From a candidate division TM6 bacterium GW2011_GWF2_30_66 (GTDB lineage: Bacteria > Babelota > Babeliae > Babelales > Vermiphilaceae): 33,123 bases of DNA. Shown here piece after piece: positions 2,195 to 32,980 of the stretch. Position 1 is the stretch's first letter. Every line of letters begins with the position of its first letter. The stretch lies in assembly GCA_000989195.1 (NCBI GenBank), contig LBOA01000007.1:1-33123 (forward strand), given 5' to 3'. Under the pieces are notes generated by a model that was not told where the DNA came from, did not search any database, and saw nothing but the letters and a program-made list of their open reading frames with translations. The translations under genes and the position numbers were made by a program.

Positions 2195-4099
2195 ATGTTT
2201 GAAAAAAATTATTTCAAAATTACTTTATTTACACTGACAATATTAATAATACCTACAGTATTTTATTTAATTTATCCAAAAAGTAATCATATACCACTAA
2301 AAGTTCTTTTTGGTACGCCTGCAAAGTCTGGACTAAAGATCTCTCCTGATGGGAAAAAACTATCTTATCTTGCTCCAACTAATGGCGATGGCATGCGCAA
2401 TATCTGGGTAAAAACAATAGGTCAAGATGACGATAGAGCAATAACAATACAAAAAGAAAGAGATATAGTCCAATATATATGGGCTTTTGATAATGAACAT
2501 CTATTTTACATTCAAGATAATAACGGAGATGAAAATTATCACATATATAAAGTAAACATAAACACTAAAGAAACAAAAGATCTAACTCCCTTCCAAAATA
2601 CAAGAGCAAGTTTTTTATCTTACGAAAAACATTTACCAAATCAAATGATAATTACACTCAACATGCGAAACAAAAAAGTTTTTGATGTATACAAAATAGA
2701 TCTAAAAACAGATATCTTAATTTTAATTGCGCAAAATCCTGGAAATATCGATTCTTGGCTTACAGACTTTAGCAATAACATTAAAGCTGCAACAATAGCA
2801 AAACCAGATGGCCGATACGATGCTCTCGTAAAAGATAATAATAATAGTAACTGGAGAAAAATAGCGTCTTGGAGTCTAGAAGAAGATAGAAGCAAACTTT
2901 TGCATTTCTCAAGAGATGGCCAATTTATTTATGCATGTGATTCACGAGATTCAGATACAACTAGGCTTGTAAAAATTAATTTCAAAACAGGAAAAACTGA
3001 AGTTGTTTTTTCAGATCTAAATTACGATTTTGATGACATAATAAAAAATCAAGACACAAATGAACTACTTGCAGGCTATTATCAAAAAGAAAAGAAAGAA
3101 TGGATTTTTTTCAATAAAAAATTTGAAAGCGATATGAAACTCGCCATGAAATTAGATACCGGTGATATTAGTCTACAAAGCAGAGACAGCCAAGACAAAA
3201 AATGGATTATCGTTTTTATAAAAGATAATGGGCCAATTTCTTACTGGTTATTCGATAGAGAAACAAAAAAAGGCGAATTTCTATTTTATAATATGCCAGA
3301 ACTAAATAAATATAAACTTGCGAATACAGAACCTATATCTTTTATATCAAGAGATAACATAAAAATAAACGGCTATCTAACTTGCCCTATAAATAAAAAG
3401 TGCAAAAATTTACCAATGGTTCTTTTTGTTCACGGCGGACCATGGACTAGAGATAACTGGGGCTATAATCCTGTTTCACAATTATTTGCAAATCGTGGGT
3501 ATGCAGTTTTGCAAGTTAATTTCAGAGGTTCAACAGGGTATGGTAAAAACTTTTTAAATTATGGCAACAAGCAGTGGGGAAAAAATATGCAAAATGATTT
3601 AACCGATGCTGTAAATTGGGCAGTTTCAACCGGATTAGCAAACCCAAAAAAAGTTGCAATATACGGCGGATCTTATGGCGGATACGCAGCACTTGCTGGC
3701 GCAGCACTAACACCTGATATTTTCTGCTGCGCAATAGATATTGTTGGTCCAAGTAATTTAATAACTCTTTTGCAATCAATACCCCCATATTGGAGTACTG
3801 GAAAATATATGTTCCAAAAACGTGTTGGAGACTTAGAAACTGAGAAAGAATTTTTGCAATCCATATCACCGCTATTTCATGCAGATAAAATAAAAATTCC
3901 AGTTATGGTGGTTCAAGGTGCAAATGACCCTAGAGTTAAGCAAGCTGAATCTGAACAAATAGTTGAAGCTATGAAAAAAAATGGCGTTAATTACGAGTAT
4001 TTGCTATTTACAGATGAAGGCCATGGATTACTAAAAGAAGTAAATAAACTTAAATTTTATCAAGCTGCCGAAAAATTTTTGACTAAATACTTAGGATAA
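2195..4099 (+). CDS. S9-family serine peptidase (acylaminoacyl/dipeptidyl peptidase type)
   Basis: 634 residues with prolyl-oligopeptidase architecture. Residues 8-28 form an N-terminal hydrophobic anchor or signal. Residues about 40-360 are a beta-propeller that gates substrate entry, including a TolB-like SPDGKKLSYLAP near the start. The C-terminal alpha/beta-hydrolase has an HGGPW oxyanion segment, the nucleophile Ser493 in GGSYGG, Asp578 in QGANDPRV and His610 in EGHG. All triad residues are present, so it should cleave short peptides outside the inner membrane. In a host-dependent bacterium it probably helps supply amino acids from peptides. It is a single gene between dnaJ and a convergent gene. 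The exact S9 subfamily is not certain. Confidence 0.93.
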   Translation: MFEKNYFKITLFTLTILIIPTVFYLIYPKSNHIPLKVLFGTPAKSGLKISPDGKKLSYLAPTNGDGMRNIWVKTIGQDDDRAITIQKERDIVQYIWAFDNEHLFYIQDNNGDENYHIYKVNINTKETKDLTPFQNTRASFLSYEKHLPNQMIITLNMRNKKVFDVYKIDLKTDILILIAQNPGNIDSWLTDFSNNIKAATIAKPDGRYDALVKDNNNSNWRKIASWSLEEDRSKLLHFSRDGQFIYACDSRDSDTTRLVKINFKTGKTEVVFSDLNYDFDDIIKNQDTNELLAGYYQKEKKEWIFFNKKFESDMKLAMKLDTGDISLQSRDSQDKKWIIVFIKDNGPISYWLFDRETKKGEFLFYNMPELNKYKLANTEPISFISRDNIKINGYLTCPINKKCKNLPMVLFVHGGPWTRDNWGYNPVSQLFANRGYAVLQVNFRGSTGYGKNFLNYGNKQWGKNMQNDLTDAVNWAVSTGLANPKKVAIYGGSYGGYAALAGAALTPDIFCCAIDIVGPSNLITLLQSIPPYWSTGKYMFQKRVGDLETEKEFLQSISPLFHADKIKIPVMVVQGANDPRVKQAESEQIVEAMKKNGVNYEYLLFTDEGHGLLKEVNKLKFYQAAEKFLTKYLG

Positions 4100-4133
4100 A
4101 AACAAAAACCATATTGCGTCAAAAATAAATGCC

Positions 4134-6607: not shown

Positions 6608-6702
6608 GCAAAGCCCTCTTTAATTTTAAAAAACTCAATAATTTAAATATTTTCAAACTAATAATATAATATCTATATTTTCATATAAAACACAATTTTA
6701 AT

Positions 6703-6853
6703 TACTCACAAATAAACTAAACGCTCATGCCAAGCTTTTTTCTACTCTTTTGAGATATTTTAAGCTCTCTATTTTGCTCAAAACCCTTTTTATTAATCAA
6801 ATAATAAAAAAATTCCCTATCGGCCCCTTTAACAACCGCCTGCTCATGCGCTT
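6703..6853. repeat. direct repeat, left copy: 3' end of the NurA-domain gene
   Basis: 151 bases that match 7597-7747 without gaps at about 141 positions. On the minus strand it still encodes the last ~45 residues of the NurA-domain protein and its own stop (TAG instead of TAA). Five codon differences are synonymous; the only amino-acid changes are two adjacent codons (Glu-Leu for Gly-Met). It lies on the far side of the hicAB module. Confidence 0.9.
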
Positions 6854-6899
6854 ATGTAATAACCCCGGAGAACCTATTCCTTTTGGCTATTTACAATGG

Positions 6900-6908
6900 T
6901 GCTATAAT
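6900..6908 (+). promoter_or_regulatory. extended -10 promoter of hicAB
   Basis: TGCTATAAT about 60 bases before the hicA GTG start, with no good -35. HicB proteins usually repress their own promoter through the C-terminal DNA-binding domain, so the AT-rich stretch at 6909-6960 is the likely operator. I see no clean palindrome there. Confidence 0.5.
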
Positions 6909-6966
6909 GTGGTACTATTTTATTTATAATAAGTATTATTGTTTAATATTAGAAAACTAGGTACAC

Positions 6967-7230
6967 GTGAATAAAAAACAAAGAGAAATGTTAAAAGCTA
7001 TTTTTGAAGAGCCAACTCTCTCAAATGTAAAATGGGCCAATATTGAGTCTCTTTTTAAGAATCTTGACGCAGAAATAAGTGAAGGAAACGGATCAAGAAT
7101 ACGCGTTATTCTTAATTGAATAAAGGCCGTTTTTCACAGGCCGCATCCGAGAAAAGAGACTGATAAAGGAGCTTTAGTGTCGGTACGTAGGTTTCTAGAA
7201 AATGCAGGGATAAGATATGATGAAATATAA
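6967..7230 (+). pseudogene. hicA: HicA-type mRNA interferase toxin, interrupted by a nonsense codon
   Basis: Reading from GTG 6967 gives 50 residues, then TGA at 7117-7119, then 36 residues in the same frame to TAA at 7228-7230. The two halves together match the HicA family: EGNGSRIRVILN before the stop, AVFHRPHPRKETDKGA and SVRRFLENAG after it. The stop replaces a position where family members usually have Gly (LNG), so a single GGA to TGA change explains it. HicA folds like a double-stranded-RNA-binding domain and cleaves mRNA; the fragment lacks half the fold and should be inactive. The 3' end overlaps hicB by 14 bases, the normal module layout. GC content looks higher than in the neighbours, which suggests transfer. 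Confidence 0.85.
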
Positions 7231-7534
7231 AGGTTATTTGGGCGAAGTTACTTATGATGCAGAAGCAAAAATATTCCACGGTGAAGTCCTTGGCCTAAAA
7301 GACGTAATAACGTTTCAAGGCACAACCGTAAACGAATTAGAAAAAGCATTCAAAGATTCAATCGATGACTACATTAATTGGTGCAAAGAACGCGGCGAAG
7401 AACCTGAAAAAACATTTTCAGGAAATATTAGAATACGAATCTCGCCTGACCTTCATGCAAAACTTTCGCAAGCCGCTACAATTAAGGGTTTAAGCTTAAA
7501 TTCTTTAATTATTGATAAATTACAAAAAAAATAA
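7217..7534 (+). CDS. hicB: HicB-family antitoxin
   Basis: 105 residues, apparently intact. The N-terminal half (YKGYLGEVTYDAEAKIFHGE, then DVITFQGTTVNELEKAFKDS) is the partial RNase-H-like fold that binds HicA. The C-terminus (RIRISPDLHAKLSQAATIKG and following) is a ribbon-helix-helix-type DNA-binding domain. It should neutralise HicA and repress the module. Because hicA is broken, it is now an orphan antitoxin, possibly still able to block related toxins. ATG codons at 7217 and 7220 are both possible, with AGGGAT just upstream inside hicA. Confidence 0.92.
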   Translation: MMKYKGYLGEVTYDAEAKIFHGEVLGLKDVITFQGTTVNELEKAFKDSIDDYINWCKERGEEPEKTFSGNIRIRISPDLHAKLSQAATIKGLSLNSLIIDKLQKK

Positions 7535-7596
7535 ATAATAATTTCTAAAATCGGGGGTCACAGCTAATAAAAATCGTGGCTCACCATTTTTTATTT

Positions 7597-7747
7597 TACT
7601 CACAAATAAATTAAACGCTCATGCCAAGCTTTTTTCTACTTTTTTGAGATATTTTCATGCCTCTATTTTGCTCAAAACCCTTTTTATTAATCAAATAATA
7701 AAAAAATTCCCTATCGGCCCCCTTTACAACAGCTTGCTCATGCGCTT
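7597..7747. repeat. direct repeat, right copy: inside the intact NurA-domain gene
   Basis: The in-place copy of the 151-base repeat. It covers the C-terminal codons and stop of the NurA-domain gene plus 14 bases beyond. Together with 6703-6853 it brackets the hicAB module. Confidence 0.9.
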
Positions 7748-8789
7748 CGGCAATTGCTACAGGATAGCCCATGCCTTTAATCGTCTGATCAGCAATAATA
7801 GTCGCAACTTGATCAACTTTCTCTTGATCATTTGCGATCCAAGCCGGAATCTCTATACGCGCAATTTCATGCCCAATATTAATATAAAAAAAATGTGGCT
7901 TTAGATGCTCAGGATAATACTCAGTAATTTTTGAAGTATTTTTAAAAATAATTGTTCGCTCAAACTCTTTTAGATAAAATCCAGCTATCGTGGCATCAGA
8001 AATACAATCTACAACTTTATATGCCTGTGAATCTTCAACATTAAAATCACATAACGCAACCCTAATTAAACTTAAAAGCTCTTTACTTTTAGTCAAACTT
8101 ATATATCCAGCCATAAGAACTTTGTCTTCATAAAACTTATTCATTATGCTCAAATATTTTTCTAAAAAATACTTTTTAACACTTTCTGCTTTTGCCTCGA
8201 GGTGCCAAAATATAATAGATCCATCAAACAAAAAAACCATAGGCAAATTTAATTTTACATACTCAGTCGCCAGATCATAACCTGCGATAAATTCATAATC
8301 TTGTCTGCTACAATTTACCAAATCAACAGGACTATCTTGAAAGTCATCAAATAACAAGTCGCTAAACACATGTGGCTCTGAATTAAAATAGACGCGTTTT
8401 TCTTGAAAATTTTGCCCCGCTTCTATAACCTGCCCATCTAACCCAACTCGCCCAGTCTCAATGCCATAATTTATTGCTACATACCCGATATTTATCAAAT
8501 GACAAAAAGTACCAGAATGCCTGTCTGGATAAATTTGTGAACCGTCAGAAGATAAAATAACATACTTATCTATACTTTTTTTCACCTCAAAAACATCGCA
8601 TAAATCACCATACCAATCTGGAATAATCAATTTTGATTGCGTTAGGTGTTTAATTTTATATTTAAAAACAGGATCTTTTGAAATTTTATCCCAAACTTCT
8701 TTTGCTATATTTATTTCATGAGAGAAATCTACGAATAGTTTATCTGAAACTTCGTTTATCTCTTTTATTAACTTACACCGGTCAAGCAT
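7611..8789 (-). CDS. NurA-domain nuclease
   Basis: 392 residues from ATG 8789. A longer frame exists, but it only runs through the upstream gene; AAGG precedes this ATG, which overlaps the sufU stop by 8 bases and implies translational coupling. Family landmarks: ILSSDGSQIYPDRH (Asp82), FLFDGSIIFW (Asp189), and near the end GYPVAIAEAHEQA (Tyr342, His350). In NurA these acidic, Tyr and His residues build the Mn-dependent 5'-3' nuclease site. NurA proteins normally work with the HerA/FtsK-like translocase in DNA end resection; no herA is in the window. The last 45 codons are duplicated beyond hicAB. Confidence 0.85.
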   Translation of the reverse strand: MLDRCKLIKEINEVSDKLFVDFSHEINIAKEVWDKISKDPVFKYKIKHLTQSKLIIPDWYGDLCDVFEVKKSIDKYVILSSDGSQIYPDRHSGTFCHLINIGYVAINYGIETGRVGLDGQVIEAGQNFQEKRVYFNSEPHVFSDLLFDDFQDSPVDLVNCSRQDYEFIAGYDLATEYVKLNLPMVFLFDGSIIFWHLEAKAESVKKYFLEKYLSIMNKFYEDKVLMAGYISLTKSKELLSLIRVALCDFNVEDSQAYKVVDCISDATIAGFYLKEFERTIIFKNTSKITEYYPEHLKPHFFYINIGHEIARIEIPAWIANDQEKVDQVATIIADQTIKGMGYPVAIAEAHEQAVVKGADREFFYYLINKKGFEQNRGMKISQKSRKKLGMSV

Positions 8790-9159
8790 GCTTAGCCTTA
8801 TACTCAAGTATTCCCTCTTTAAGGGCCATAAGCGCAAGCAAAGCACACTTAATACGCATAGGCCCCAGAGGCATACCAATTATTTCACTTATTTTACTAT
8901 CTTGAAACCCCAAAACCTCTTCTATCTTTTTACCAACAAAAAACTCTGTCAGCATAGAAGCTGTCGCCAAACTAATTACACAACCTTTGCCCTCAAAAGC
9001 CAACGCCTTTATAATTCCATCTTCAATAATACCTTCAAAAGATATGCTATCACCACATGATGGATTATATTGTACCGTTGAAAATACTGGCTTTTCAAGA
9101 TGCCCTCTATTTCTTGGATTTTGATAATGATCCATTAAAATTTCTTTATAAAACTTCAT
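8782..9159 (-). CDS. sufU: SufU/IscU-type Fe-S cluster scaffold
   Basis: 125 residues. It starts with FYKEILMDHYQNPRNRG, typical of NifU-N/SufU proteins. The cluster or zinc ligands are Cys35 and Asp37 in NPSCGD, Cys60 in GKGCVIS and Cys105 in RIKCALLA. The RIKCA context favours SufU over IscU, although the protein is short for SufU. It accepts sulfur from a cysteine desulfurase and helps assemble Fe-S clusters in the cytoplasm. No desulfurase or other suf gene is next to it; its only partner is the overlapping NurA-domain gene, an unusual pairing. Confidence 0.9.
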   Translation of the reverse strand: MKFYKEILMDHYQNPRNRGHLEKPVFSTVQYNPSCGDSISFEGIIEDGIIKALAFEGKGCVISLATASMLTEFFVGKKIEEVLGFQDSKISEIIGMPLGPMRIKCALLALMALKEGILEYKAKHA

Positions 9160-13188: not shown

Positions 13189-13569
13189 TTAAAATCCTCT
13201 TCTTTTCCACCAATAATCAGTTGTGAAGTCAAAAGGCAGATCAACATAAAATTCATTACTCTTACCCTTACTATCAACATTTATTTCGTAATAAGTCCCG
13301 GTTTCTGAATTACAATATATTTTAAATTCACTTTCCAAGATCTCATGGTATTCATCCACTAAACTCTCTGGAAATTCAAAACCACACCAAGGACAATTAT
13401 AAATTACAAGCTTTCCATTTCTTGGTGATTTTAAACCAATAAAATATTCTCGATAAATAGGGTTATAATAAATTGAAACTTTTTTTTCCTCCAAAAAATA
13501 ATCCATGCTTTCACAGCAATGCTCAATTTCTTTTTTTACAACTTTTTTTGTTTTCACTTTTATAGCCAT
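13189..13569 (-). CDS. small HCC/CPWCG protein, subtype 1; candidate immunity protein (fourth in array)
   Basis: 126 residues, no signal peptide, so cytoplasmic. HCCESM near residue 18 and NCPWCGFEFP around residue 60 form a CC plus CxxC set that could bind zinc. The C-terminus ends TDYWWKRRGF. The region YREYFIGLKSPRN is shared almost exactly with the second gene of the array, so the two are subtype 1. As I remember it, the layout resembles DUF6980-type proteins. Position downstream of a colicin E3-like toxin suggests an immunity or antitoxin role, which is inference. GGGA lies just before the ATG. Confidence 0.75.
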   Translation of the reverse strand: MAIKVKTKKVVKKEIEHCCESMDYFLEEKKVSIYYNPIYREYFIGLKSPRNGKLVIYNCPWCGFEFPESLVDEYHEILESEFKIYCNSETGTYYEINVDSKGKSNEFYVDLPFDFTTDYWWKRRGF

Positions 13570-13593
13570 CTGAAAATCCCATACCTTAAAAAT

Positions 13594-13893
13594 TTACAAA
13601 TTTCTTTTCTTCCACCACTCATCACTATTAAACTCTTTGGGAACTTTACTCGATTGCTCATCACTTGTTGGATCATCTAAATCATATTCTTTTTCCAAAA
13701 TCTCCAACCATTTCTTATGTAAATTTTCAGGCAACTTACTACCACAAAAGGGACAATACAATATAAACTCGTCTGCTTCTGGACCCATATCAATATAATA
13801 ACCCCTAGAATATTCTAAATATTCAACATCTACTCTTGGATCAGCTACAAATTTTGTCATCAACTGACAACAATGCTTAATTTTATCACTCAT
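13594..13893 (-). CDS. small HCC/CPFCG protein, subtype 2; candidate immunity protein (third in array)
   Basis: 99 residues from ATG 13893. A longer start at 13920 lies inside the preceding gene, but AGGAG at 13903-13907 sits 9 bases before ATG 13893, which decides the start. That ATG lies just past the preceding gene's stop. Motifs are HCCQLM near residue 7, YCPFCGSKLPENL near residue 48, and the tail SDEWWKKRNL. It is closest to the first gene of the array (RGYY plus DEQ and WWKKR regions) and shorter than subtype 1. It has no signal peptide. The proposed role is the same as for its paralogues. Confidence 0.75.
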   Translation of the reverse strand: MSDKIKHCCQLMTKFVADPRVDVEYLEYSRGYYIDMGPEADEFILYCPFCGSKLPENLHKKWLEILEKEYDLDDPTSDEQSSKVPKEFNSDEWWKKRNL

Positions 13894-13895
13894 TT

Positions 13896-14291
13896 TTATA
13901 ATCTCCTGTTTTTCCACCATTTGTCATTCTTAAACTCATCTGGCAACTCAAAATCTCTCTCATCATGAAAATCTTCCGCATCTACAAAACCTTGTAAATA
14001 ACCCCCAGTATATGAATTACGGAATACATCAAAATCTTTTAACAATATATCATGGTATACTTCTACCAAACTTTTTGGAAACTCAAAACCACACCATGGA
14101 CAATTATAAATTGGATGCTTCGCATTTCTTGGTGATTTTAAACCAATAAAATATTCTCGATATATTAAATTATAAAAAATTGTGGCTTTTTCTTTTTTCA
14201 AAGAACTATCCATTTTCTTACAACAATGCTCAATTTTTTTATCTTCAACTTTCTTCTTTTCAACTACTTTTGCTTTTGTTTTTACCGTCAT
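13896..14291 (-). CDS. small HCC/CPWCG protein, subtype 1; candidate immunity protein (second in array)
   Basis: 131 residues. A Lys-rich N-terminus precedes HCCKKM near residue 22. YREYFIGLKSPRN and NCPWCGFEFPKSLV follow, and the tail is NDKWWKNRRL. It has the same length class and central sequence as the fourth gene. AGGA stands before the ATG, inside a short leader (CAAATAAATTAGGAATT) also found before the first gene, so the leader was duplicated with the gene. Confidence 0.75.
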   Translation of the reverse strand: MTVKTKAKVVEKKKVEDKKIEHCCKKMDSSLKKEKATIFYNLIYREYFIGLKSPRNAKHPIYNCPWCGFEFPKSLVEVYHDILLKDFDVFRNSYTGGYLQGFVDAEDFHDERDFELPDEFKNDKWWKNRRL

Positions 14292-14318
14292 CTCAAAATT
14301 CCTAATTTATTTGATAAA

Positions 14319-14645
14319 TTATAACTCTCTTTTCTTCCACCACTCTTCACTCTTAAATTCTTCTGGAATTTTACCAGCCTGTTCATCGTCATACGGATCT
14401 ATCTTGCATTCTTTTTTTATAATTTTAGCCCTTTTATCGCTTAGATCCTCTGGAAATTTAAATCCACACCACGGGCAATTAAACATTAATTGTACCCCGA
14501 TCCCAGTCGTTTCCAGATAATAACCTCTCCAATCTGGATAATAAGAAATTCTTATCCTTGGATCATCTATAAATTTCGCCATCAATTGGCAGCAATGCCC
14601 GGTTTTTTTATCTACGATCTTCTTTATCTTTACTTTTTCCGTCAT
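14319..14645 (-). CDS. small HCC/CPWCG protein, subtype 2; candidate immunity protein (first in array)
   Basis: 108 residues, cytoplasmic. Motifs are HCCQLM near residue 17, NCPWCGFKFPEDL near residue 55, an acidic linker with DPYDDEQAGKIPEEF, and the tail SEEWWKKREL. It is the intact gene nearest to the toxin, which ends 160 bases upstream, the place where polymorphic toxin loci normally carry the cognate immunity gene. It shares subtype 2 features with the third gene. Zinc binding is predicted from the Cys pairs only. Confidence 0.75.
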   Translation of the reverse strand: MTEKVKIKKIVDKKTGHCCQLMAKFIDDPRIRISYYPDWRGYYLETTGIGVQLMFNCPWCGFKFPEDLSDKRAKIIKKECKIDPYDDEQAGKIPEEFKSEEWWKKREL

Positions 14646-14648
14646 TTA

Positions 14649-14740
14649 ACAATTCCTAATTTATTTGACAACTTTTTTTCTCGTCACCAATCACTTTTAA
14701 ACTCTTATTATCAAAACAACAATTCAACCTGTTTTTCATA
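14649..14740 (-). pseudogene. decayed fifth copy of the HCC/CPWCG family (C-terminal relic)
   Basis: Between the toxin gene and the first array gene the minus strand encodes EFKSDW, then a TGA, then REKK. This aligns with the C-terminal EFKSEEWWKKREL of the array. It is followed by the same AATTTATTTG-type spacer that follows the other copies. Upstream the frame is broken by three stops in a row, and no HCC or CPWCG part is left. It is too short for certainty, but spacer and tail match together. Confidence 0.45.
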
Positions 14741-14808
14741 CCACTATCTTTAAAAATTAATCTCTTTATCTCTCACAAAAAATTCTCTAAAAATAATATT
14801 TCATCTTC

Positions 14809-16161
14809 TCATTTTGGAAACGGCCTACCAATAATACCCAACTTATACATTAAATTTCGAATAGCATCCCAAGATCCCATATGTTTTTTTGATGCATTAA
14901 AAATTTCCACATCATTGTGATCATAATCCCAATAAACATATTCTGCATCCTTGTTTAACCCTGGCCTACCTGGCCTTCTTTGATATATCTCACCTCTACT
15001 TGACTTTCTAAGAAATTTATAATCTTTTTTAATATCAGGCCGATGAAGAAACTCTGTTTTCGTAACATTATTTAATGCTCGATCTTTTTTCCCCTCCCTA
15101 TTATTTTTATTATTTCGATTATTATTCCCAGGAGGAGTTGATTCTGATTGAGCACCTCCGTTATTTTTTACTTTTTCTTTCTTCTGCTTCTTAGCATTAT
15201 TATTTTTTCTTTTATTATTATTTCTGCACCTCCTACAATACTTTACTGGCGAACATTTATTAGATTGCGTAGAACTAGACCCCGATTTAGCTGCGCTTAC
15301 ATTTGTGGTCCCAGAATTTGCCTTATTTCCCGATTTACCACTATTAGCAGTACAAGCCGCCGCCAAAGCACAAACAGTAGCAGCCTTCAATCTAAACCTT
15401 ACAACCGCATTTGCACCAATCTTTTTTACAAATTTTATAAGTGGAGTAGCAACAAATTTACAAGTACCTATAACCCCTTTAGCTGTATCTTTTAGCTTCA
15501 CCAATTTACCACTATCTTTAAGCCAAGAAAAAACTATACTGCCTACAAAAAAACAAACCCCTAGCCAGCCAGCTCCGCCACTAGTAGCACCACCAGGAGC
15601 GCCACCACTAAAACCACCAGAATTAAATATAGCTGCAGGAATAGCAGGCCCAACATTATGAACTAAAATTTGTGATTTATAAATAAAAAATGTATTTGGC
15701 TTTTTTAATGAACCTTCATATGCCTTAGCCTCTTGATCTAAACTCTCTACGCCTAGGCACTGATGCTTATTTTTATCACAATCAACAATAAAACTTCTAT
15801 CAGTAAGATTTTTAGCTTTAACCCAATCATCAATAGAAGAATCATAAAAAAGATGATCTTTCCCTACCAACAAAGTCTCTTTATCAATTTTAATTCTAAC
15901 TACAGGTTGTTTATCTTCTTCTTTTATATTTATTATTTCAGCTTCAACAAGAGACTCTTTTTCTAAACCTAATACTCGATTTCCAACAACCAAAGCCTCA
16001 ATAGGAACCATGCCCTGTGAGGTTTTAATCATGGTGCCGGTAATAATAGCTGGAAATACAGCCGCATTCCAAAGCAGCAACAAACAAAGACTAACCGAAA
16101 CAAACTTATAAAATCCTGAATAACCAACACTAATCGACAATTTAAACTTTCGTGCGAACAC
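14809..16161 (-). CDS. secreted Hint-domain polymorphic toxin with colicin E3-like rRNase C-terminus
   Basis: 450 residues from GTG 16161, with AGGAGAG just upstream. Residues 18-40 are a hydrophobic export signal. Residues 38-169 are a Hint domain: ITGTMIKTSQGMVPIEALVV, KDHLFY (His103), and the terminal ILVHN (His168, Asn169). The usual N-terminal Cys nucleophile is Ala38 by alignment, so normal self-cleavage is doubtful. Next come a Gly-rich segment, a hydrophobic segment (198-214), Cys residues and a basic Asn/Lys linker (about 313-365). The last 50 residues contain YVYWDYDHNDVEIF and ASKKHMGSWD, matching colicin E3 YEWDSQHGELEGYRASDGQH and LGSFD. Asp412, His415 and Glu419 correspond to E3 Asp510, His513 and Glu517; Arg435 may stand for Arg545. 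I infer a 16S rRNA-cleaving toxin. Four candidate immunity genes follow on the same strand. Confidence 0.85.
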   Translation of the reverse strand: MFARKFKLSISVGYSGFYKFVSVSLCLLLLWNAAVFPAIITGTMIKTSQGMVPIEALVVGNRVLGLEKESLVEAEIINIKEEDKQPVVRIKIDKETLLVGKDHLFYDSSIDDWVKAKNLTDRSFIVDCDKNKHQCLGVESLDQEAKAYEGSLKKPNTFFIYKSQILVHNVGPAIPAAIFNSGGFSGGAPGGATSGGAGWLGVCFFVGSIVFSWLKDSGKLVKLKDTAKGVIGTCKFVATPLIKFVKKIGANAVVRFRLKAATVCALAAACTANSGKSGNKANSGTTNVSAAKSGSSSTQSNKCSPVKYCRRCRNNNKRKNNNAKKQKKEKVKNNGGAQSESTPPGNNNRNNKNNREGKKDRALNNVTKTEFLHRPDIKKDYKFLRKSSRGEIYQRRPGRPGLNKDAEYVYWDYDHNDVEIFNASKKHMGSWDAIRNLMYKLGIIGRPFPK

Positions 16162-16212
16162 TACACTCTCCTGAAAATCATTTCAACACTTAAAACTCTC
16201 ATTAGACCCGTA
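16073..16212. repeat. direct repeat A: 5' end and leader of the toxin gene
   Basis: 140 bases covering the first 30 codons and the leader of the toxin gene. They match 18479-18618 without gaps at about 127 positions. The leader and first codons (16157-16207) are almost identical, while the coding part has drifted more. Confidence 0.9.
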
Positions 16213-16223
16213 GCTTAACTAAA

Positions 16224-16251
16224 ATTATATAAAAATTTATGCTAAACCTAA
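16224..16251 (-). promoter_or_regulatory. possible promoter of the toxin gene
   Basis: On the minus strand TATAAT (16229-16224) is preceded after 16 bases by TTAGGT. It would give a leader of about 55 bases before the GTG start. It lies just outside the duplicated segment. The -35 is weak. Confidence 0.35.
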
Positions 16252-16265
16252 TTTATGCGAAATTA

Positions 16266-18329
16266 TTAAGCCGTTGCGCCTTGTAAAATCAAGTACTCTG
16301 CCATCTCTTGATTGCCACTTTCAAAAGCAATTCTTAATGGCATATTTCCATCAACATCAGCTATATTTATTGATTTTTGTGCACCATTTTCTATAAGATA
16401 TTTTACAACTTTAAAATTATTTTTATAGCAGGCAAGTTGAAGTGGTGATGTAAAATTGTTGTTTGTTTTATTAACATCTGCACCCTTAAAAACAAGATAT
16501 TTTACTAAATCAAAGTTTATTTTTTCAGATGCCAATGCATATAATAATGGAGTTGCTCCAATAATATCTTCAGCTTCAATATCTGCCCAATTTTCGATTA
16601 GATACTTTACAACTTCAAGATTATTTTTGTAACAGGCAATGTGAAGTGGTGATGTAAAATTGTTATTTGTTTTATTAACATCTGCATCATGAGAAACAAG
16701 ATATTTTATTACACTAAAATTTATTTTTTCTGAGATTAATGCCTGTATAAGTGGTGTTGCTCCAAGGATATCTGACGCATTAATATCGGCTCCATAAGAA
16801 AGCAATAAGTCAATTATTTTTATAGATCCTTTTCTCGATGCATAATGTAATGCATTCAAACCATAACTATCATTTTTATTTATATCTGCGCTTAATTCTA
16901 GCAAATATTTAATAGTTTTAATATCTTCTGCACTACAAAATAATATAATCGGCGTTACTCCAAAAAAAATATTTTTATTAATATCGGCTCCGTAAGAACG
17001 TAATAATTCAATAATTTTTTTGTTATTTTTACAAAATGCAAAAAAAATTGGCGCTATCGCGATATAGTTATCTTTATTTTTATCTGCACCTTCTTTTAAT
17101 GAGAATCGAATATAACTAGCTTTATTTAAATCTGCCCCCATTTCTAATAAATGTTCAATTATTTTAAAATTTGGCTCTACGCAACAAAGCGTGAGAGGCG
17201 TAATATCCATTTTAAATTCTTTATCCATGTCAGCTTCGGCAAATGAAATAAAATTAACAACTTCCGTAAAATTTTTATTTAATTTAAAAAATTCACAAAG
17301 AGGTTTTGTTATATCTAAAGTAATTTGTTTATTAATATCGACTCCATATTTAATAAATAAATTAATCATGTCCATATCTTCCGAAATTAACGCGAAAAAA
17401 AATGGCGTAACTCCATTAAAACTAACCTTATTTATATCTGCTCCTGCATTCAGCAAGCATTCAACAACTTTAATATTTGAGCCTATACAATAAAACATTA
17501 ACGGCGTAATATTCATAATAATCTTATTATTAATTTCAGCTTCATTAGATAGAAAAATTTTAATTAATTTAGAAGATTTTTGCTCAGAACTCAATATATC
17601 TGTTAAATCTACAGAAACTTCTTGATTAATTTTAGCTCCATACCTAATAAATAAATTAATTATTTCTATATTTTCTGAGCTTAGGGCATAAAAAAATTGA
17701 GTGAAACCATAAATATTCGTTTTATTTATATTTGCTCCAGATTCTAATAATAACTTCACAATTTTAACATTTTTATTAAAGCATCCACTCATAAGAGGCG
17801 TTTCGCCATCAAAATCTTCTTTATCTATATCACAGCCATTTTCAATAATAAATTTTACCAAATCTAGATTTTCATCCATACATGCATAATGAAGTATTGT
17901 CGACCCAAGCTCATCAACTATTTGATTAATATCAGCCCCATTGTCTATAAGATATTGCATAATTTCTTTATTTTCATTTATGCATGCAACAAATAAAGGT
18001 GAAAAATTTATTGTATTTATAAATTTTCCTGCACCATATTTAACTAATATTTTTACCATTTCCAAATTATTATTTCGACAAGCCCAATAAATAGGCGTTT
18101 CCCCCTCGCCATTTGCTATATTAACTATTTTTTCTTGGCTTTTAAATAATAAAACTTTGACTTTATTCAGATCATTTTTTTTGCAAGCGCATAAAAGTTC
18201 TGAATATACAAAATTTAAATCTAAACCTAAATTCTCTTTTTTATTTATTTGCACTGCCTGCATTGTTATAGAAAACACGTCTATAAGAAAAACAATACTT
18301 ATTACTTTTAATTTTTTTGAAAACTTCAC
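16266..18329 (-). CDS. secreted ankyrin-repeat protein
   Basis: 687 residues from GTG 18329. Residues about 7-26 are a signal peptide (VISIVFLIDVFSITMQA). The rest is a string of about 17 ankyrin repeats of roughly 33 residues, with units such as GETPIYWACRNNNLEMVKIL and GLNALHYASRKGSIKIIDLL; the middle repeats are degenerate. Near the end a two-repeat block of 68 residues occurs twice in a row, both with NKTNNNFTSPL. Secreted ankyrin proteins of intracellular bacteria often bind host proteins, and this one may be an effector; that is inference. The gene lies between two copies of the toxin gene's 5' end. Confidence 0.9.
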   Translation of the reverse strand: MKFSKKLKVISIVFLIDVFSITMQAVQINKKENLGLDLNFVYSELLCACKKNDLNKVKVLLFKSQEKIVNIANGEGETPIYWACRNNNLEMVKILVKYGAGKFINTINFSPLFVACINENKEIMQYLIDNGADINQIVDELGSTILHYACMDENLDLVKFIIENGCDIDKEDFDGETPLMSGCFNKNVKIVKLLLESGANINKTNIYGFTQFFYALSSENIEIINLFIRYGAKINQEVSVDLTDILSSEQKSSKLIKIFLSNEAEINNKIIMNITPLMFYCIGSNIKVVECLLNAGADINKVSFNGVTPFFFALISEDMDMINLFIKYGVDINKQITLDITKPLCEFFKLNKNFTEVVNFISFAEADMDKEFKMDITPLTLCCVEPNFKIIEHLLEMGADLNKASYIRFSLKEGADKNKDNYIAIAPIFFAFCKNNKKIIELLRSYGADINKNIFFGVTPIILFCSAEDIKTIKYLLELSADINKNDSYGLNALHYASRKGSIKIIDLLLSYGADINASDILGATPLIQALISEKINFSVIKYLVSHDADVNKTNNNFTSPLHIACYKNNLEVVKYLIENWADIEAEDIIGATPLLYALASEKINFDLVKYLVFKGADVNKTNNNFTSPLQLACYKNNFKVVKYLIENGAQKSINIADVDGNMPLRIAFESGNQEMAEYLILQGATA
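16441..16848. repeat. 204-bp tandem duplication inside the ankyrin gene
   Basis: The sequence from about 16441 recurs with an offset of exactly 204 bases (68 codons) from about 16645, including the shared stretch AGTGGTGATGTAAAATTGTT. It encodes two successive two-ankyrin blocks. Outer limits are approximate because homology fades into ordinary ankyrin similarity. Confidence 0.7.
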
Positions 18330-18474: not shown

Positions 18475-18567
18475 TTATAGCAACGACAAACAAAGACTAA
18501 CCGAAATAAACTTATAAAGTCTTAGATGAGCAACACTAATCAATAATTTAAACTTTCTTGCGAACAC
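18475..18567 (-). pseudogene. truncated 5' copy of the Hint toxin gene
   Basis: GTG 18567 to TAA 18475 encodes 30 residues, starting MFARKFKLLISVAHLRLYKF, against MFARKFKLSISVGYSGFYKF in the full toxin. The identical AGGAGAG ribosome site precedes it. Homology stops just after the signal-peptide core, so only the leader and export signal remain. It lies upstream of the ankyrin gene in the same direction. Confidence 0.85.
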
Positions 18568-18618
18568 TACACTCTCCTGAAAATCATTTCAACACTTAAA
18601 ACTCTCATTAGACTCGTA
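18479..18618. repeat. direct repeat B: second copy of the toxin gene 5' end
   Basis: Partner of 16073-16212 at a constant offset of 2406 bases. The two copies bracket the ankyrin gene. The region 18330-18474, between the ankyrin start and this copy, holds nothing else I recognise. Confidence 0.9.
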
Positions 18619-18729
18619 TGATCTTATAATTTTTCAAAAATCTATTCAACAAAAACTTTTGTGAAATTCATAATAAATTTTAATGTAATAACGACAAATG
18701 GTACAAATAACCATAATTTATCTATATAT

Positions 18730-31276: not shown

Positions 31277-31507
31277 AAACTTACTCCTAATTTTTCAAAA
31301 AAAACTTTTAAAACTTAGCTCCATTTTTTAAAGTTCATCGTATCACATTATTTTTTTTTTTACACCAATTAAACAAGATTATTATTTAACTTAAAATTTT
31401 AAGCGAAAGCTTATCAGGTAAAAAATTAAACATTCGCATAACAAAAAACTATTATTATATAAACCCAACACCAATATATTACTAAATTATGCCGTTGCCA
31501 AAACAAA

Positions 31508-32980
31508 ATGACTATGATAAACTTTAAAAATAAGGCCTTAAAACCTTTTTCCTTAAAAAATCACCCAAACAATTTAAAAAATAGAAAAATTATGATAAAA
31601 AATAAATATAAAATGCTATTAATGTTCGCACTATCAAGCTTTCTAACGCCATTTGTTGGCAGCTCAATGAATCTTGCCCTGCCGATAATAGGCAAAGATT
31701 TTGGCATGAATATTATTTCGCTAGGCTGGATTGCAACAATATTTTTACTTTCTACATCAATATTCTTAGTTCCATTTGGTAGATTAGCAGATATTCTAGG
31801 CAGAAAAAAAATATTTATTACTGGAATTATTACATTTACTCTGGCCTCTATTTTATGCGGCCTTTCAAATTCTGGAACATTTTTATTAATAGCACGAGCA
31901 ATACAAGGTATTGGTAGCGCTATGATCTTTGGAACATCTATGGCACTTTTAGTTTCAATATTTCCACCGAGAGAACGCGGTCAAGCTCTAGGATTTAATG
32001 TATCCGGAGCACAAATGGGAAATTCTGTTGGCCCAATAATCGGCGGATTTGTCACCCAATATCTTGGATGGCGGTATATTTTCGCTATTTCTACTATCTT
32101 TGGAGCTATTGTTATTTATCTTGGCTTAAAATATATAGACGGCGAACACGCAAACTCAAAAGGCGAAAAATTCGATATAATTGGCTCAATTTTATATGCA
32201 ATTTCTGTAATTTCTATACTATATGCTCCAAGCATACTCCCATCACTAACTGGATTTGCTATTATTGCAATTGGAATATCCGTTTTTACAATTTTCAGTT
32301 TATACGAAAAAAAGATAAAGCACCCTGTTTTCGATATTGATCTACTGTTAAAAAATAAAAAATTTGCCATGTCTAGCTTAGCCGCGTTACTTAATTTCAG
32401 TGCCGCATTTGCAGTTCCATTTTTAATAAGTATGTATTTACAATACGCAAGAGGCTTTCAACCAAACGAGGCTGGAATTATTTTATTATTTTTAGCAATC
32501 ACAATGGCTATATGTGCTCCAATTGCAGGCAGACTTTCTGATCTAAAAGACAAACAAATTATTGCCGCAACCGGCATGTCTATTGCCGCAACAGCGATAC
32601 TAACTCTTAGTTTTATTCTCACACAAAATACGCCAATATCTGCAATTGCAATCTTACTTGCAATATTTGGATTCGGTCTAAGCTTATTTTCTACCCCAAA
32701 TACACACGCAGCTATGGACTCTGTTTCCCATAAACATTTGGGCCTTGCATCTTCTGTGCTAGGCACAATGCGTATGCTTGGACAAGCTCTTAGTATGTCA
32801 ACAACAATGCTTATATTTTCACTAATTATAGGCAAAGTAAAGATATCAAGCAGCGTATTACCACAGCTTATGCAAAGTATTCATATAATTTTATTTATTT
32901 TTGGAGTTTTATGTATTCTAGGCGCACTTGCATCACTTGTTCGCGGCACAAAAGATAAAGAAATTATAGAGAAAATTTAA
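31508..32980 (+). CDS. MFS drug or metabolite exporter, DHA2/EmrB-QacA type
   Basis: 490 residues, about 14 membrane helices, the count of the DHA2 family. Motif A is GRLADILGRKKIFI between helices 2 and 3; motif C-like GAQMGNSVGPIIGGFV lies in helix 5; the second half has a motif A remnant GRLSDLKDKQII. These proteins export drugs, bile acids or other small molecules with proton exchange. The start is uncertain: ATG 31508 has no clear ribosome site and adds about 28 hydrophilic residues; ATG 31592 is an alternative close to helix 1. No TetR or MarR regulator is adjacent. Confidence 0.9.
   Translation: MTMINFKNKALKPFSLKNHPNNLKNRKIMIKNKYKMLLMFALSSFLTPFVGSSMNLALPIIGKDFGMNIISLGWIATIFLLSTSIFLVPFGRLADILGRKKIFITGIITFTLASILCGLSNSGTFLLIARAIQGIGSAMIFGTSMALLVSIFPPRERGQALGFNVSGAQMGNSVGPIIGGFVTQYLGWRYIFAISTIFGAIVIYLGLKYIDGEHANSKGEKFDIIGSILYAISVISILYAPSILPSLTGFAIIAIGISVFTIFSLYEKKIKHPVFDIDLLLKNKKFAMSSLAALLNFSAAFAVPFLISMYLQYARGFQPNEAGIILLFLAITMAICAPIAGRLSDLKDKQIIAATGMSIAATAILTLSFILTQNTPISAIAILLAIFGFGLSLFSTPNTHAAMDSVSHKHLGLASSVLGTMRMLGQALSMSTTMLIFSLIIGKVKISSSVLPQLMQSIHIILFIFGVLCILGALASLVRGTKDKEIIEKI

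Follow-up and report, generated by a model that had tools for sequence, protein, structure and literature searches.

We find that a hicAB gene pair in the DNA analysed here (the window, 33,123 nt, which is contig C7 of genome G000, a Babeliales bacterium) lies between two directly repeated copies of the 3′-end of a NurA-domain gene, and that these copies look like alleles of two strains. We suggest, with a probability of roughly 55%, that DNA from a related strain was added to the chromosome by means of an anchor of nurA homology and without an integrase, that the old 3′-end of the gene was displaced in the process, and that the toxin gene died later. The features of the region are the following.

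6702-6853, minus strand: orphan nurA 3′-end, consisting of 44 codons, the stop and 15 bp (93.4% identity to 7596-7747)
6890-6918, plus strand: promoter-like site (TTTACA, 17 nt, TACTAT) upstream of hicA, on weak evidence
6967-7230, plus strand: hicA pseudogene with a GTG start, HicA toxin family PF07927 (38.5 bits when read through with X; cut-off 27)
7117-7119, plus strand: in-frame TGA at hicA codon 51, truncating the frame after 50 codons (a sense codon in relatives)
7217-7534, plus strand: intact hicB antitoxin gene (PF05534, 69.4 bits; cut-off 21)
7552-7591, plus strand: hairpin followed by a T-rich tract, downstream of hicB (-11.5 kcal/mol, z -3.25)
7596-7747, minus strand: gene copy of the repeat, consisting of the last 44 nurA codons, the stop and 15 bp downstream (repeat match)
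7611-8789, minus strand: NurA-domain gene of 392 aa, the target gene (PF09376, 80.5 bits; cut-off 21)

The two copies have the same orientation on either side of hicAB and measure 152 bp (93.4% identity, E=4e-63). This upholds the bracket reported in a first-pass annotation of the window, which had put the repeat at 151 bp; 6703-7747 spans the whole structure. A chance repeat is ruled out by the E-value, and a dispersed repeat is ruled out as well, since BLAST against 1.09 Mb of the genome (1.11 Mb in 53 contigs, unfinished) returned exactly two copies. The orphan end keeps its frame of 44 codons and its stop; the start is absent, and an in-frame stop lies immediately upstream. The NurA-domain gene, preceded by an iscU-like gene (8782-9159), has orthologues in 49 of the 51 genomes searched, and its relatives are found in Candidatus Dependentiae / Babeliales. 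With the domain present and a HerA-type ATPase on contig C4 of the same genome (PF01935 match, 109.6 bits), its product qualifies as a NurA nuclease whose activity is predicted.

Ten coding differences separate the two nurA ends, seven of them synonymous, and they are distributed as 1, 1 and 8 over codon positions 1, 2 and 3. By codon, five sense codons differ synonymously, the stop is TAA in one copy and TAG in the other, and two neighbouring codons are replaced (GM versus EL), so the earlier description of the distal copy, with frame and stop kept and changes synonymous but for two adjacent codons, was accurate. Relatives were too distant to place the ancestral state of GM versus EL. Tested against random change, the synonymous excess has p=0.0005; tested against target duplication plus decay, a null in which the gene copy takes synonymous changes only while the orphan drifts, it has p=0.013. 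Pooling of nine 3′-end pairs, which were picked by the bracket survey described below and not chosen beforehand, gave 31 synonymous changes among 50 coding differences (p=1.5e-10 and p=4e-5 against the same two nulls). With two 5′-end pairs added the pooled test gave p=0.001, and without the three strongest pairs it was not significant (11 of 22 synonymous, p=0.08). The 5′-end pairs, belonging to the ankyrin gene of the window and to ruvA in G020, are without synonymous excess (3:9 and 2:5). The random decay of a dead duplicate, which the first-pass annotation had argued against, is thus disfavoured both by the window pair and by the pooled pairs. The codon pattern argues with moderate strength that the nurA ends diverged while both were coding, which would make them probable alleles of two strains.

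The 742 bp between the repeats hold only hicA and hicB, on the plus strand and tail to tail with nurA. As in other type II HicAB systems, a HicA-family gene (PF07927) adjoins a HicB-family gene (PF05534) in the usual order and with an overlap, here of 14 nt, and the hicB product is a ~54% match to annotated HicB antitoxins. It differs from such systems, which have two intact frames, in that hicA is interrupted by a stop and the antitoxin alone is intact. A reading of TGA as a sense codon is ruled out, as TGA ends 48 of ~615 long ORFs in the genome and is thus an ordinary stop; since codon 51 is a sense codon in relatives, hicA is therefore a pseudogene. Judged from its reading frames, hicAB is a module that no longer works as a toxin-antitoxin pair, with a broken toxin gene and an intact hicB. 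The hairpin downstream of hicB is a probable terminator, and it is absent from the output of a pattern scan. A close hicB is present in 11 other genomes. Of these, five have an intact hicA (G008, G013, G020, G021, G029) and three a broken one (G006, G012, G016), while none was detected in the last three (G007, G009, G028), so that loss of the toxin with the antitoxin kept is common in the group. Across the genomes searched, hicB is scattered (present in 13 of 51), and HicB and NurA distances are not correlated (rho 0.08, seven genomes, among genera), which suggests that hicAB may have moved independently. Near an fkbM-type gene, hicAB was also seen in two genera, in opposite orientation (L049 4199-8311, L055 5270-8446); at the G012 hicAB locus near an fkbM-type gene, hicA is decayed and a search for a copy of the fkbM 3′-end found none.

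The arrangement recurs in Babeliales with other genes. On contig C8 of the same genome, a prmC-like gene has its 3′-end (31301-31430) duplicated at 32231-32360 with 90% identity, and the two copies enclose a HigBA-type toxin-antitoxin pair (Gp49/HTH). G008, from a different genus, has an fkbM methyltransferase gene whose 3′-end is present three times, in the order fkbM gene, PF09820 AAA-ATPase gene, 73-bp copy (99%), intact inverted hicAB and 49-bp copy (96%). The survey, which covered G012 in part, found there a pcrA 3′-end bracketing a PF09820 gene; a PDDEXK_2 gene 3′-end around an MNT-HEPN pair (169 bp, 97%, all five coding differences synonymous); a PLA2_B gene 3′-end around an Rpn-type nuclease gene; a metallo-hydrolase gene 3′-end around a secreted-protein gene of unknown kind; and a histidine phosphatase gene followed by two successive orphan ends. 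Across these brackets, all in unfinished assemblies, the repeats are imperfect and 49-169 bp long, the inserts are ~0.7-2.5 kb, and targets and cargo vary; tandem arrays were seen twice. In control sequence, no bracket was seen over 250 kb of E. coli, and nurA loci from outside Babeliales (198 kb) held a single one, which is not at a 3′-end. The enrichment of brackets in Babeliales is suggestive only, the control sequence being too small for a firm contrast. Repeats at C10 44612/45490, L244 and L062/L068 were excluded as ordinary tandem gene duplication, those on C10 being paralogous neighbours, and multi-copy repeat families on C33 and C43 were excluded from the bracket list. PF09820 AAA-ATPase genes have undergone expansion in some Babeliales, with seven matches in the source genome and 17 in G012, and are absent in most (loci L057-L086).

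We propose that related-strain DNA carrying its own nurA 3′-end followed by hicAB would have entered the cell, and that the donor nurA end would have paired with the resident nurA as a homologous anchor. Upstream of hicA, the other end of the incoming DNA could then have been linked, with no homology involved, to a point within the resident nurA 3′-end; a closed circle that integrated via one crossover would be an alternative route to the same product. This would leave nurA intact with one of the two 3′-ends, presumably that of the donor, followed by hicAB and then by the other, displaced 3′-end, and the chromosome would have lost nothing. Such additive integration would require no integrase, and we suggest that additive events persist because no gene is damaged. 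Death of hicA would have come afterwards, with hicB staying. Genes of the ComEC and DprA families, which most bacteria possess, are present in the source genome, so DNA uptake by this organism is possible. No same-genus genome, and with it no empty site, was found in the genome collections searched, and viral contigs searched with the NurA alignment gave nothing useful. At ~50 Babeliales nurA loci of other genera, neither hicB nor a second nurA tail was found nearby, which is consistent with arrival in this lineage only.

The layout is like that left by insertion with long target duplication or by homology-facilitated illegitimate recombination. The former is described for restriction-modification genes (Nobusato et al. 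2000 and Furuta et al. 2010, as related in PMC3874152, PMC1643837 and PMC3031569), and as portrayed there it shares with our bracket a direct target duplication of ~100 bp and variable length (here 152 bp, on both sides), an addiction-type gene pair, the lack of any transposase or integrase, and repeats between which recombination could remove or amplify the insert. Compared with that portrayal, the cargo here is not restriction-modification but toxin-antitoxin, AAA-ATPase, Rpn-type nuclease or other genes, and the copies have diverged at synonymous sites, with the second copy resembling another allele. No report of such insertion of toxin-antitoxin modules was found in the literature searched, outside which the two original papers lie. 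A true long target duplication could have led to the same arrangement: a staggered double cut in the nurA 3′-end would have been filled in around hicAB to give identical copies, after which the orphan hardly changed and the gene copy diverged, in part through exchange of alleles with other strains. Insertions with a long and variable duplication of ~100 bp are described for restriction-modification genes (PMC3874152, PMC1643837), and such an origin would sit well with the lack of synonymous excess in the 5′-end pairs and in L262/L277. We nevertheless consider it unlikely, if the most serious of the rivals, given the seven of ten synonymous differences in the window, the five of five at L245 and the pooled count over nine pairs, and given that the orphan still has its frame and stop.

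Tyrosine integrases act at tRNA or gene ends, and the first-pass annotation had likened the structure to an integrative element. This likeness holds for the product, as the 3′-end is duplicated and the gene is intact, but not for the process: there is no integrase, the insert is only ~0.7-2.5 kb, the repeats are imperfect (49-169 bp), and neither target nor cargo is fixed. Its overall reading is thus partly supported, and its remark that the window has no integrase is borne out, for none was found near hicAB and the only two tyrosine recombinases found in the genome are on contigs C2 and C43. A trans-acting recombinase that inserts elements site-specifically at gene 3′-ends, with each element bringing a replacement 3′-end, could account for the predominance of 3′-ends, the intact restoration of the target gene and the tandem arrays. 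However, nothing between the repeats encodes an integrase, neither recombinase is near, the targets, repeat lengths and cargo all differ, and a comparison by eye of the nurA, prmC and fkbM repeats revealed no shared core. Because the recombinases are distant and inspection by eye showed no shared site, integrase insertion is disfavoured, and we judge it improbable. A tandem duplication of nurA and hicAB, followed by deletion of one hicAB and most of one nurA, would also leave a directly oriented 3′ remnant, but it needs two precise deletions here and at every other bracket, it leaves the many different cargos unexplained, and relatives have one nurA tail; we regard it as very improbable. Least credible is an artefact of mixed-strain assembly that strung both alleles on one contig. 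The assembly is indeed unfinished, with its 53 contigs, and the copies differ like strain alleles, but hicAB lies between them, and the same anatomy is found with different genes in the unrelated assemblies of G008 and G012.

Homology-facilitated illegitimate recombination, which our preferred reading of addition through a nurA anchor follows, has been proposed for the same layout and for serial arrays at Vibrio cholerae T6SS effector-immunity loci (PMC5361080) and for CDI orphans in Acinetobacter (PMC6336857). As in those arrays, a homology anchor in a gene, the addition of new genes, an old 3′-end left as a downstream orphan, and serial arrays are all seen or proposed here, and the allele-like divergence of the copies that such recombination entails was found in the window (p=0.013) as in the pool (p=4e-5). 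The tandem arrays fit successive displacement, as proposed for T6SS effector and CDI orphan 3′ regions. Here, in contrast, the insertions lie at housekeeping genes or unrelated ones (nurA, prmC, pcrA) and leave the product of the target unchanged, and the genes added are not effector-immunity pairs of that target. Recurrence around other toxin-antitoxin and nuclease genes suggests that modules spread without an integrase. We put forward, tentatively, the wider idea that modules in Babeliales may travel with the 3′-end of a host gene, insert there by homology and displace the end of the recipient, so that a "long target duplication" could be two alleles. If this is true, such a duplication would be two alleles lying adjacent, with no target duplication at all. 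Lone chromosomal toxin-antitoxin modules without a mobile element are common. Recurrent two-allele gene-end brackets would be a readable record of module arrivals, and they offer a test, in a little-studied phylum with small genomes, of how "long target duplications" arise.

Some further repeats lie at other kinds of site. A second bracket in the window (16073-16240 and 18479-18645, 86-91%) surrounds an ankyrin-repeat gene (16266-18329), and its repeat covers the 5′-end of a PT-HINT-domain gene (14809-16161) together with the promoter, with mostly non-synonymous differences. In G020, the 5′-end of ruvA is doubled (L054 2249-2400 / 3960-4111, 94%) around two small secreted-protein genes, and this bracket directly adjoins hicAB. 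On contig C6 of G000, a Bro-N domain gene lies inside a 153-bp, 95% intergenic repeat unique to the site (14563-14745 / 15623-15775). A dispersed repeat of ~90 bp (94-98%) occurs at several sites in the genome, including C43 13635-13725, with 18 BLAST hits when partial ones are counted, and is possibly a small mobile repeat. Tandem paralogues with 77-80% DNA identity are found at 13189-14645 in the window.
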